From: a virus
DNA: 22,559 bases
IMG/VR virus record: IMGVR_UViG_3300032665_000205
Coordinates: 1-22,559 of that record
Reading direction: 5' to 3' (one strand)
Positions 590-6,441 of the stretch are shown piece after piece. Position numbers and translations under genes: made by a program. Positions within the stretch are counted from its first letter, which is position 1, and each line of letters opens with the position of its first letter. The notes under the pieces were generated by a model that ran no database searches, was not told the DNA's origin, and worked only from the letters and a program-made list of their open reading frames with translations.

Positions 590-1462
590 TCAGTTCCCCA
601 CCCAACTCGCGGAGATCTTGGATTCCCAGGGCCCGCCCGGCATCTCGCAGGAGAGATGGTGCTTGAGCCCATGTACGCGCCAGGTGCCGCAGCACACCGG
701 GATGACGCTCTGCACATTGATCAGGCCGCCCAGCTTGACGCCAGGGTTGTAGAGGCAGGTGACTTTGAGCCCCTCTTTGTCGAACACCGGGTAGCCACGC
801 ATGCCTGTGCCGGCGGAGATCAGCGGCGCCGTTCCGGCCCGGGCCTGCCCCTTGGGAGCGACGAACAAGACCCCGTCATCCACCCCGAATTCGATCCCCG
901 CGGCGTCCGCCACGGCCCCGGCCTGCTGCATGGCGCTGCCCGGGAGGTAGGGATTGGAGAGGTGGCCCGTCACGCCCCCATCCTCGAACTGGTAGCCCAT
1001 CTGGGAGGCCAGCGTGCTCATGAGGGTCTTGATCGGGACGACGCCCTGGTAGCTCTTGGGTGGAACCGGGGCGATGGCCGGGTAGTAGCCCGCCAGTGCC
1101 TCCAGGTGGAAGTAGAGGCCCGGGCTGCTCTGGTAATCCACCCAGGCGCCCGAGATCTCGCCCTCGAAAGCCGTGGCTAGGCCGTATTGGTCCCCGGCCA
1201 GTAGCTGGATGAGGTTCTTGTGGACGGCCAGGGGCTTGGCGGACTTCCCGGGGAGGGTCGTCAGCAGGTTTATATCCGCTTCGAGCATCCCGTAGATTTT
1301 CAGTTTCAGGCCGTTCTTGCTGGGATGCCCGCCCTTGTCGATCTCGGCCTCCATGCGGAGCCCGGAGGCGATCTTGGTGTTGTTCGTGCCGTCAAAGGTC
1401 CCGCTGGCCAACGTGAGCTTGGCCTGGAGGACTTTGGAGGTGAAACTGGCACCCTGGGTCAC
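590..1462 (-). CDS. Baseplate hub protein (gp27/gpD-like)
   Basis: A 290-aa protein just upstream of the spike. The N-terminus (S-F-T-S-K-V-L-Q-A-K-L-T-L, then SGLRMEAEIDKGG) resembles the conserved opening of baseplate hub proteins in phages with DUF3383 sheaths. The middle holds a V-P-I-K-T-L-M-S-T-L-A segment, and the end (WESKISASWVG) also fits hub proteins that link tail tube to spike. I chose the GTG at 1462 because the family-like sequence begins there and it follows the plug gene stop by four bases. The frame also extends to a TTG at 1507, but those 15 residues look unstructured and would overlap the plug gene. No strong ribosome binding site is visible, so translation is probably coupled. 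Role inferred from position and pattern. Confidence 0.7.
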   Translation of the reverse strand: MTQGASFTSKVLQAKLTLASGTFDGTNNTKIASGLRMEAEIDKGGHPSKNGLKLKIYGMLEADINLLTTLPGKSAKPLAVHKNLIQLLAGDQYGLATAFEGEISGAWVDYQSSPGLYFHLEALAGYYPAIAPVPPKSYQGVVPIKTLMSTLASQMGYQFEDGGVTGHLSNPYLPGSAMQQAGAVADAAGIEFGVDDGVLFVAPKGQARAGTAPLISAGTGMRGYPVFDKEGLKVTCLYNPGVKLGGLINVQSVIPVCCGTWRVHGLKHHLSCEMPGGPWESKISASWVGN

Positions 1463-1466
1463 GTGA

Positions 1467-1772
1467 TCACCGTTGGTAGATCGAGATGGTGCAGTTCTGG
1501 CCCCCAAGACTCACGTCGAGTTGCTGGGAGGGCACGGCCTGGAGGGGCACCTGGAGGGCTGGCTGGCCCTGTTGGGCATAGAGCAGGCGATACCTGCCCG
1601 TGGGCCCCAGGCCGGTGTAGTCGGGATCCTGGGAGCCCTGGGCATCATCAAAGCCCAGGTGCCCCACGAAGCCCAGGTAAGGGTAGCTGTCGATCTTGAC
1701 GCAGTTCAGACAGGGTACGCCCGCCCAAAGCAGCGTGCCATCGATGGCGAGGTCGCAGTAGAGGTTGCTCAT
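1467..1772 (-). CDS. Baseplate plug-like protein, halves in permuted order
   Basis: A 101-aa protein between the Dit-like gene (ATGA overlap) and the hub gene. Two blocks match what I know of the phage baseplate plug family (cyanophage Pam3 gp18 type). Residues 3-65 (LYCDLAIDG, YLGFVGHLGF, DPDYTGLG, RYRLLY) look like the family's usual C-terminal part. Residues 72-101 (LQVPLQAVPSQQLDVSLGG, then QNCTISIYQ) look like its usual N-terminal strand pair. In family members as I remember them, the PSQ-x-L-x-V-x-L block comes first. Here it comes last, after a short Gln/Ala/Pro linker, so the domain appears circularly permuted. Length is normal for the family. Family call moderately sure; the permutation rests on recall of the usual architecture. 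Confidence 0.68.
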   Translation of the reverse strand: MSNLYCDLAIDGTLLWAGVPCLNCVKIDSYPYLGFVGHLGFDDAQGSQDPDYTGLGPTGRYRLLYAQQGQPALQVPLQAVPSQQLDVSLGGQNCTISIYQR

Positions 1773-2299
1773 GAGGCTGCCTCTGCATCTTGGAAGATGG
1801 TTTTCCAGGGAGGCGACGGGGGCGTAGCCGGAGCCTGGGCCTGCTCCTTTCCACCTGGAACCTTGGAGGCGCTGGAGGGGTTCTTGGGATGGGAGATCTT
1901 CACGGCGGTATAGGCCGGCGCGACTTCCCGGACTTGTTTCAAGGCCAGGTCGACCACCAGCATGCTCGATCCGCCGTTGTCGACGGTCTGGGCGTAGTCG
2001 ACGCCCTCCAATGCGACGTTGAAGTAGTTACAGGTGGGGGTAACGATGTTGTAGAGGTTCGTGCTGGCCAGTTCCGTCGCGAGAGCCCCTTGGAAGGCAG
2101 ACATCCGGATCATGCCGCCCACCGCCAGGCGAACCTTGGGGGCGAAGGGCTCAACCACCTTGTTGTAGCTAGTGAAAGCGCCCTGCTCCACGGGAAAATC
2201 GGAGATCTTGGCCTTGGCCGAGAACTTGAGGTCGAGAACCGTGTCCACGTCGAACACCAGGTCCCCAGCCAGAGAGTAGACGCCGAAGCCGTTGGCCAT
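1769..2299 (-). CDS. Dit-like baseplate / distal tail protein
   Basis: A 176-aa protein starting two bases after the tape measure stop. Residues about 18-65 (DVDTVLDLKFSAKAKISDFP, then EQGAFTSYNKV, then PFAPKVRLAVGG) match the N-terminal pattern of Dit-like tail proteins, which ring the tube end and start baseplate assembly. Residues 65-130 continue as a mixed alpha/beta domain. The last 45 residues are rich in Pro, Ala, Ser and Lys and are probably flexible. The TGA stop overlaps the start of the plug gene (ATGA). Order tape measure, Dit-like, plug, hub, spike is the usual one in phages with this tail type, which supports the call. Confidence 0.68.
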   Translation of the reverse strand: MANGFGVYSLAGDLVFDVDTVLDLKFSAKAKISDFPVEQGAFTSYNKVVEPFAPKVRLAVGGMIRMSAFQGALATELASTNLYNIVTPTCNYFNVALEGVDYAQTVDNGGSSMLVVDLALKQVREVAPAYTAVKISHPKNPSSASKVPGGKEQAQAPATPPSPPWKTIFQDAEAAS

Positions 2300-2300
2300 C

Positions 2301-3875
2301 TCAGAACCCCCCGTCCGCGTGGTCCAACAGGGAATTCGACCTCAGCGCCCCAGGGATCTCCTTGGCGATGCCCTGGGCGTCCGTGGCCTGGGTGTGGATG
2401 TTGATGGGGCCGTTGATGTTGGTTTCGCGGTGACTGGTGGACCTGGACGAGGCGTTGGAGATCGAGGGACGCATAGCCATCCCGGCGCCACCGGCATAGG
2501 CCGGCTGCAGCCCACCCGAGGCGCCACCGGCCATGCCGAAGGTGGCGACCTTGAGCACCACGCTTCCGATGGCCTTGAGCTTGTCCCAGATCCAGCCCAG
2601 GGCGTGTTTGGCGCCCTCCAGAACCGACTTCCACATCTTGGAGGCGGCGTGCTCGATCGTGAACCACACCTTCAAAAAATGAAATGCGATGTCATAGGCT
2701 ACCTGGTTGAACCAACGGCCCACCTCCTTGATGTGGGTAATGAGCAGGTAGAGACCGGCGGCAACCAGGGCAATGGCTGCCACCAGGAGCGCGATGGGCC
2801 AGGTGGCCATGAACCATGCGATGGCCGCATTGATGCCCATGAGAATGGCATTCCCGTTGACTACCAGGAAGGCGGCGGCGATACCCAGGATGGCCGCTTT
2901 GACCACCTCCGAATGGTCCCTGATCCAGGCGGCGATCTTGACCAGGACATCACCAATGGCCTGGAGCGCGGGCATGAGGGTCGACATGATTTCCCGTCCT
3001 GCGGCAGCCAGGGCTCCCTGAAGCTGAATCATGGACTGCTCAAATTGCTCGGCCTTCTTTATGTCTTCGTCCGAACTGACGTGCTTCTTGATCTGCCCGG
3101 TGAGTTCCGCAACGGCCTTTTTGCCGGTCTGAAGCAGCCGAATGGTCCCCTCGTCCAACCCCAGCCGCTCGCCCAGGGCCATGGCCTTGGCTCCGCTCAT
3201 CTTCTCCATCTTCTCGGCCAGCAGGCCCATGACCTGGGTGGCGTCCTTGCCTTTGAGGGCAACGGCGGAGATGCCCATGCCAGCGAAGATCTGCAGGGCC
3301 ATCTTGGACCGGGGCCCGTGAATGGCGATCATCTGGAGCCTGGAATTCAGGCCCTTCAGGGACTCGCTCATCCCTTCAGCGGTGCCCCCGAAGCGCTTGG
3401 CGGCGCCCTGCAGGGCCTCGACCTCTTCCACGTCGGCGTCCAGGGTCTTGGCGAGGCGCCCGGCCTCGACCTGGGCCTCCACCGTGTGGTGAATGAATTC
3501 GGCCATGCCGGCGGCGGCGGCCAGGATGCCGAAGAATTCAAGGGCGGAGGTGGCCAGTTCCTTGAAGAACTCCTTGCCCTTTTCCTTCTGCTCCTTGATC
3601 TTCTCGGTAGCCTCCCGTGCCTCCTTGACCAGGTTGTCCTTGATGGCCTTGGCCGCTTTCTTCTCGGCGGCCATCAGTTCCTTGGCCTTCTCCCGGGCGA
3701 CTTCAATCTCTTCCTTGGTCCCGCCCTTGGCAGCCGCGACGATGGCCTTGGCCGACTTGGAGGACTTCTTGACCAGATCCTCATAGACCTTCTCCGCGTC
3801 CTTGCCGCCCTTGTGCATTTCCTTCGTGTCGATCCCGAAGGACACAAAGAAGGCGTCGAGCACCGTTCCGCTCAT
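2301..3875 (-). CDS. Tail tape measure protein
   Basis: A 524-aa protein, the longest in the window. Residues about 20-105 are almost pure Lys/Glu/Ala helix (coiled coil). A hydrophobic stretch lies near 108-127, and a second long hydrophobic region at about 324-380 has the Ala/Ile/Leu segments typical of tape measures. The C-terminus is Gly/Ser-rich and unstructured, ending in a HADGG-F motif. The protein sets tail length, fills the tube lumen and is ejected ahead of the DNA. It starts at an ATGA overlap with the end of the chaperone -1 frame (stop at 3872-3874), the standard arrangement. About 520 residues implies a short tail of several tens of nanometres, using the known rule of roughly 1.5 angstrom per residue. 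Confidence 0.88.
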   Translation of the reverse strand: MSGTVLDAFFVSFGIDTKEMHKGGKDAEKVYEDLVKKSSKSAKAIVAAAKGGTKEEIEVAREKAKELMAAEKKAAKAIKDNLVKEAREATEKIKEQKEKGKEFFKELATSALEFFGILAAAAGMAEFIHHTVEAQVEAGRLAKTLDADVEEVEALQGAAKRFGGTAEGMSESLKGLNSRLQMIAIHGPRSKMALQIFAGMGISAVALKGKDATQVMGLLAEKMEKMSGAKAMALGERLGLDEGTIRLLQTGKKAVAELTGQIKKHVSSDEDIKKAEQFEQSMIQLQGALAAAGREIMSTLMPALQAIGDVLVKIAAWIRDHSEVVKAAILGIAAAFLVVNGNAILMGINAAIAWFMATWPIALLVAAIALVAAGLYLLITHIKEVGRWFNQVAYDIAFHFLKVWFTIEHAASKMWKSVLEGAKHALGWIWDKLKAIGSVVLKVATFGMAGGASGGLQPAYAGGAGMAMRPSISNASSRSTSHRETNINGPINIHTQATDAQGIAKEIPGALRSNSLLDHADGGF

Positions 3876-4956: not shown

Positions 4957-6441
4957 TTACTGGACGTCGATCGACGCGAGGTTGAGCTGGGTGACACCGG
5001 AGGCGCCGCAGTACCAGAACGAGCAGGGCGGCGTGGTCTGGGCGGCCCGAGACTGGGCAGAGGCGGGGAGCACCTGGAGATACCAGCCGATGGTCCCCAG
5101 GGTGCCGGAGATGGTGACGCCGGCCTGCAGGTTGACCGTGGAGATCTCCGAGGCGGACAGCACCGCGCCCTGGGTGATGACCCCGTTGTAGACGGCCTGG
5201 GCGATCACGCCACTGCAGGCCTCCTCGATCAGGCCATAGCCAGAGGGGTCGTAGGCCACGGCGTTGACGCTGGTGAACATGGTCATCTCGGCCAGCTGCA
5301 GGGCCGCATTGAGCCAGATCGCGTCCACGTAGGCACCAATGTTCTCGTAGGGCCCGCTGATCTGCCCAGGGTAGAGGATGTTCCACTGGGTGGCCGCCGT
5401 CGCATAGGCTCCGTAGTAGTTGTAGCCGTTGGCCTTGAGATTGGCGGCCGAGATGGCATCGGTGACGCTCGCGGCCAGGCCGGAACTCGTCTTGTAGGAG
5501 TAGTCGATGCGGCCCTTGGAGCGCGTGTAGTCCACCGAAGCGGCGCAGCCCAGGATGAAGGAGGCCAGGAGCGGATCCGAGTAGACCGGCGCCACACCCG
5601 AGATGGAGTTCGTCATCAGGTAGGCGCCCAGGCCCGTGAAGGACCCCGGGGTCTGGGTGGCGGTGATGTCCGTGTCGTAGGGCACATAGAAGAATTCACC
5701 ATTGGTCCCAGAGGTCCAGGTGGCGAAGGCCTCCTTATCGGCGAGCACCGGCTCGAAGGCCGAAGTGAACCCGGCCCAATTGCTGGTGTAGTTGACCAGG
5801 GTGGCCATGGCCGCCGCAGGGGTCTGGGCGGCCGAGCCCTGGGAGAGGACGGCGCCGGCCGCCGCGGTGAGCCCCAGTTCGAGCGCCGTGGTGCCAGAGG
5901 CAACCGTCATGGTGCTGGTGGCCCCGGTGGTGCCGGAGGTGATCACGAAGGCGTTGAACTGCGAGGACCAGGTCACAGCGGCGCCGGTCAGGGTCAGGGC
6001 CGTGGTGAGCAGGGCGGCCGCATTGCTGAACGAGGTGGCCGTGGACAGGTTGACGGCGGAGGCCGTGTGCACCGTGCCGTCGATGGTGACGCTCAGGGTG
6101 CCGGAGACGATGGCCTGTAGCTGGGCCAGGGTCAAGCTGATGGTCCCACCCCGCAGGAATGCGGCGATGGGGGTTGCGGCGTAGCGGCTGAACAGCAGGG
6201 CGTTGGGCTTCTGGGTGCTGTTGGTCCACCCGCCGAAGTAGGTGGCGGCCATGGAAGCTTCGAGGGTTCCGGAGCCAAAGTAAGCCAGCACCGCGGGGGC
6301 GCTGGGGAAGCTCAGCGGGGGGCCGAACGGCAGGTTTGCGCTCTCGCTGAGGATGAGGCCGTTGAGGGCCAGGGGATTGCCGCCCGCAGAGAGCACGCTG
6401 GGCGTCACGCTGATGATTTGGGAGACGGGAATGGTGCCCAT
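4957..6441 (-). CDS. Contractile tail sheath protein (DUF3383-like)
   Basis: A 494-aa protein, beginning PVSQIISVTPSVLSAGG, the typical opening of DUF3383 sheath proteins, followed by G-L-I-L-S-E-S. A Y-F-G-G-W segment near residue 70 and a late region with K-x-N-G-Y-N-Y-Y-G-A-Y and D-x-x-W-L-N-A-A-L-Q also fit the family. An inserted Ser/Thr/Ala/Gly-rich stretch (about residues 105-200) looks like a surface beta domain. The sheath wraps the tube and contracts during injection, so its presence makes the tail contractile. The ATG at 6441 follows GAGGA at seven bases, and that site overlaps the stop of the neck gene. Length is normal for the family. Confidence 0.82.
   Translation of the reverse strand: MGTIPVSQIISVTPSVLSAGGNPLALNGLILSESANLPFGPPLSFPSAPAVLAYFGSGTLEASMAATYFGGWTNSTQKPNALLFSRYAATPIAAFLRGGTISLTLAQLQAIVSGTLSVTIDGTVHTASAVNLSTATSFSNAAALLTTALTLTGAAVTWSSQFNAFVITSGTTGATSTMTVASGTTALELGLTAAAGAVLSQGSAAQTPAAAMATLVNYTSNWAGFTSAFEPVLADKEAFATWTSGTNGEFFYVPYDTDITATQTPGSFTGLGAYLMTNSISGVAPVYSDPLLASFILGCAASVDYTRSKGRIDYSYKTSSGLAASVTDAISAANLKANGYNYYGAYATAATQWNILYPGQISGPYENIGAYVDAIWLNAALQLAEMTMFTSVNAVAYDPSGYGLIEEACSGVIAQAVYNGVITQGAVLSASEISTVNLQAGVTISGTLGTIGWYLQVLPASAQSRAAQTTPPCSFWYCGASGVTQLNLASIDVQ

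Follow-up and report, generated by a model that had tools for sequence, protein, structure and literature searches.

Natural circular permutation of a Pam3 gp18-type baseplate plug in a clade of metagenomic phages

The 101-aa gene at positions 1467..1772 on the minus strand of an IMG/VR virus record of 22,559 bases (the window, which is the whole stretch of DNA analysed) was confirmed to encode a baseplate plug of the Pam3 gp18 family that is circularly permuted by nature. Its product, MSNLYCDLAIDGTLLWAGVPCLNCVKIDSYPYLGFVGHLGFDDAQGSQDPDYTGLGPTGRYRLLYAQQGQPALQVPLQAVPSQQLDVSLGGQNCTISIYQR, starts with ATG and carries first the block that is usually C-terminal in the family (residues 4-65, 1578..1763, minus strand, positions 37-99 of the Pfam profile PF22479, Pam3_gp18) and last the block that is usually N-terminal (residues 75-101, 1470..1550, minus strand, profile 3-32), the old C-terminus being joined to the old N-terminus by the linker AQQGQPALQ (residues 66-74, 1551..1577, minus strand). 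An earlier note had described two halves in reversed order, and the residues that it named were correct. The linear order of the family, a PSQ N-block followed by an LYxDL...RYxLLY C-block, was reversed in the window plug and in 20 distinct relatives. Although a clade shares this reversed order, the family norm is the usual one, seen in 79 distinct plugs, in the Pfam profile and in all four relatives of solved structure. The explanation that we consider very probable is a working plug or adaptor of the Pam3 gp18 family, with a circularly permuted chain, a predicted docking on the hub and a probable single origin, for which duplication would be the likeliest route.

The undoubled plug matched PF22479, whose accession the earlier note had given correctly, with 50.8 bits in two out-of-order pieces, residues 4-66 falling on profile 37-99 and the remaining residues on the start of the profile. 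When doubled head to tail it gave a single stretch, residues 74-167 on profile 3-99 of 101, with 106.3 bits and an E value of 1.2e-30. Both scores exceeded the curated cut-off of 24.2 bits, and the score against PHROG 349 rose from 54.6 bits single to 116.5 bits doubled. This continuous match across the joint supports the proposal, made in the earlier note, of a circular permutation with the ends meeting at the junction of the PSQ block and LYxDL; no linear match to a different fold was found. The effect of doubling was controlled with a profile made from 40 normal plugs, against which 39 held-out normal and 21 permuted plugs were scored single and doubled. The held-out normal plugs changed by -3.1 to -2.3 bits, and all 21 permuted plugs gained between 31.5 and 48.3 bits, their median span on the model increasing from 62 to 93 of 96 positions. 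The gain of the permuted plugs is far beyond chance. To judge from these profile matches, the window plug is a permuted branch of the PF22479/phrog_349 family and not a standard member.

The permuted gene keeps the slot of the family, with a Dit-like gene on one side and the hub gene on the other. Its ATG shares the tetranucleotide ATGA with the stop codon of the upstream Dit-like tail protein gene (1769..2299, minus strand; PF21821, 1.5e-7; phrog_1830), and 4 nt separate its own stop from the GTG of the baseplate hub gene (590..1462, minus strand; E217_GP41-like, 9.4e-14; phrog_196, 1.9e-49), a start codon taken directly from the sequence. This hub is the expected docking partner of the plug. 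Beyond the Dit-like gene lie the tape measure gene (2301..3875, minus strand; several tape-measure PHROGs) and a DUF3383 gene (4957..6441, minus strand; 2.8e-114), whose product, judged by its position and by general knowledge, is probably the tail sheath, in keeping with a contractile tail. Since the DUF3383, E217_Gp32-like, capsid, Mu F-like and portal genes upstream all run in the same direction, the plug sits in a contractile-tail structural module. PHROG 349 is placed in the category 'head and packaging'; the Pfam match, the gene position and the solved relatives of the plug point to the baseplate. The nearest terminase to that of the window phage was from a Desulfofustis phage (56%), and no host was found.

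IMG/VR scans with block order typed by script revealed the permuted order in 26 contigs from many metagenomes, corresponding to 21 distinct proteins (the window plug and 20 others) with identities from 100% down to 44%. The same census gave 128 loci with normal-order plugs, 79 of them distinct below 80% identity. In all the permuted proteins the ATG lies 0-4 residues ahead of the LYCDL strand, and in all 21 the linker between the old C- and N-termini has 9-12 residues. Nei-Gojobori dN/dS values were mostly 0.2-0.5 among the closer permuted genes and 0.17-0.47 for pairs with the window gene. The permuted plug is thus inherited by a clade and under purifying selection. A reading of the gene as debris or a misassembly of two adjacent plug genes could draw on the two blocks being recognisable separately and on a degenerate tandem plug copy in one relative (L086), but the intact reading frame, the fixed start and linker length, the dN/dS well under 1 and above all the conserved clade across 26 contigs refute it, leaving it next to no probability. 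The permuted plugs occupy the same slot as normal plugs except for fibre-like inserts in L086 and one gene in L117, and a hub gene was found in all eight permuted records tested. No second intact plug gene was found in the 18 permuted records searched whole, several of which are fragments.

The structure of the plug was predicted with AlphaFold2 from the 21-row alignment (pLDDT 89.4, pTM 0.80), an earlier 8-sequence model being poor (pLDDT 67) and set aside. The top VIA-align match of the model was Pam3 gp18 (PDB 7yfz chain h), with model residues 1-71 on 33-100 over 68 residues at 2.4 A and a Z of 5.2, a modest value with unrelated chains close behind. In a sequential aligner this offset is what a permutation predicts, and it recurred against the other solved plugs (residues 34-107 of Bas63, and 31-100 of both Pa193 and E217). 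The Z values alone would not prove the plug fold; more telling is the common offset of about 30 residues across four plug relatives. The last 30 model residues were unmatched because a sequential aligner cannot place both parts simultaneously. This confidently predicted fold agrees with solved plugs along two thirds of the chain. Foldseek found nothing at E 0.001 or better for the model in PDB and BFVD, which is unsurprising for a short, permuted chain.

Solved relatives suggest how the plug may dock. Six copies of Pa193 gp34 sit on the trimeric hub, the contacts being given as one pair of segments at residues 11-17 and 63-72 and a second pair at 208-214 and 153-158 (PMC11042391); since gp34 has only 106 residues, the first pair was assigned to it. 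By alignment they correspond to about residues 82-88 (SQQLDVS) and 32-40 (YLGFVGHLG) of the window plug, both within motifs conserved in permuted and normal forms. From this alignment, the docking surface appears to be kept, with the chain order of its two segments swapped. By analogy with Pa193, the window plug would be an adaptor on the trimeric hub, six per baseplate, bound through motifs 82-88 and 32-40. The related E217 gp33 leaves the baseplate cap upon contraction (PMC10329688). We infer the function of the window plug from its fold, its slot and the conserved hub-contact motifs.

The hub gene gave an independent view of the origin of the permutation. In the hub tree the permuted phages formed one clade (support 99/95), and four relatives with normal-order plugs (L095, L097, L100 and L101) were its sister group (100/99). 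With a single permuted clade in an independent tree, the permutation likely arose once, probably in a phage related to L095 and L097. In the plug tree all permuted plugs grouped with the normal-order plugs of L095 and L097 (94/96), and the latter two were nested among permuted rows with weak support (83/47 and 86/47). This placement would allow a reversal, so that the permuted order could be ancestral in the branch with L095 and L097 reverting, or could have arisen in several events; but a single permuted plug clade was not rejected (p-AU 0.31) and the hub tree separates the two orders, and we regard both scenarios as very unlikely. C6 and W16 (window numbering) are common to L095, L097 and the permuted clade; being present in both orders, they are probably older than the permutation. 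The strand, the single origin, the sister group, the absence from isolate genomes and the fibre-like fusion of L086 (the last two described below) all go beyond the earlier note.

In the favoured reading, the chain is opened in the beta-hairpin turn between the ..CTISIYQ strand and the LYCDL strand, and the old termini are linked by 9 residues. A few normal plugs, that of L097 among them, tolerate inserts in the same hairpin, which add as many as 7 residues. The likely route would be a tandem duplication of the plug gene, in-frame fusion of the two copies and then deletion of the leading N-block and the trailing C-block. The length of the linker is about that of a normal C-terminal tail plus a normal N-terminal lead, as would be left by a fused tandem duplicate, and tandem plug copies do occur (L086). 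No intermediate with the order N-C-N-C was seen in 166 loci, so the duplication route is a conjecture, and apart from the tandem mini-copy of L086 no relics of the old blocks were found beside permuted plugs. Gene fission with re-fusion in the other order, or local recombination, is a possible though rather improbable route. It would account for the missing N-C-N-C duplicate, and the 73-aa protein A0A8S5P001, mainly C-block, may hint at split plugs or may merely have a wrong start; however, a separate N-block gene beside a C-block gene was not found, and both the linker length and the tandem copies suit duplication better. The mini-ORF of L086 (L086:3847-4017, 56 aa, MICCDLILNGSQVWAGVP...SSQFNIVLGQQSCVLVLYNRN...) lies in tandem before the full plug and overlaps the stop of the Dit-like gene; it resembles a permuted plug that has lost its middle part.

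The full plug of L086 is itself part of a longer protein. A 705-aa ORF (L086:4004-6121) consists of a permuted plug whose new C-terminus is fused to about 600 aa of fibre-like sequence with collagen-like GPPG repeats, and is followed by another fibre-like gene and then by the hub. The permuted plugs show that a chain of about 100 residues tolerates opening in its hairpin and, in at least one case, a fibre-like extension. The permutation might have been adaptive, with a C-terminus at the hairpin tip that allows fibre-like fusions and a plug that doubles as a fibre anchor. The tails of about 20 aa on the permuted plugs of L117 and L118 are in keeping with this, and so are the 77 normal plugs whose stop could be seen, which end within about 18 residues of their last block. 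On the other hand, the majority of permuted plugs stop no more than about 10 aa after the last strand, and the single long fusion known may be secondary, so that this reading is unlikely; one fusion does not suffice to show selection of the permutation for fibre attachment. The related view, that the permutation was enabling and merely provided at the hairpin tip an attachment point later used for fusions as in L086, we hold to be equally doubtful. If true, it would point to a possible new way of anchoring fibres on a minimal contractile tail. In L117 a 301-aa gene without Pfam match (L117:4360-5262) separates the permuted plug from the hub; the two genes are adjacent in other relatives.

Natural circular permutants are known among swaposins, legume lectins and some viral RNA polymerases with permuted palm motifs, in which the fold is kept and the order of the chain rotated, as is predicted here. 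The type of event is thus already known and the window plug is a variant within a known family; the literature searched contained no case of a conserved, clade-wide circular permutation in the baseplate plug of a phage. The window plug shares with Pam3 gp18 its conserved motifs, its size and the gene slot before the hub, and differs in its rotated order, residues 1-71 corresponding to 33-100 of Pam3 gp18, and in the linker that joins the old termini. Its sequence match to Pa193 gp34 (PDB 9b45) and E217 gp33 (PDB 8env) continued through the doubling joint without a break (E about 1e-5), the offset in fold comparison was the same, and the hub-contact segments lie in conserved motifs, whereas these two proteins have the normal order and are only about 25% identical to it, and the docking of the window plug is predicted. 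The normal-order plugs of L095 (IMG/VR 2561511128) and L097, which share C6 and W16 and whose phages carry the sister hubs, have the PSQ block first and LYCDL second, and that of L095 aligns linearly with PF22479 over profile 3-100. The window plug offers a clean natural permutation in one small structural component of a machine built from many proteins. Because the permuted and normal orders occur in sister clades with a co-inherited partner, the importance of chain order for folding and docking is directly testable. In linear profile searches permuted plugs will appear as partial matches.

Outside IMG/VR the permuted order was not encountered in the phage records, plasmids and bacterial genomes scanned. 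None of 50,697 GenBank phage records covered a junction-spanning query to 80% or more. Aeromonas phage 2_D05 gave a match in a single piece that begins within a gene annotated with 100 codons, located before the hub, and overruns the end of that gene; this match was taken to be an ordinary plug extended by chance. Plasmids yielded no permuted plug, a match in a Kovacikia plasmid being rejected since it lay within a long, unrelated transporter-like frame. The bacterial genome scan yielded 10 loci, all of normal order, and a scan at E 1e-21 of 398 genomes from a single phylum, a weak one as it had no positive control, yielded no permuted plug.

Three cysteines of the window plug (C6, C21 and C94) hardly vary within the permuted clade, whereas normal plugs do not usually have a cysteine at position 6. 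The strand of C6 should pair with that of C94, so that the new terminal strands could conceivably be linked. The 73-aa protein A0A8S5P001 mentioned above, a BFVD entry from Siphoviridae sp. ct16C7 with a plug domain, aligned nearly full length to part of the window model (TM 0.78 by its own length) and is possibly a plug without an N-block, or one with a wrongly assigned start.
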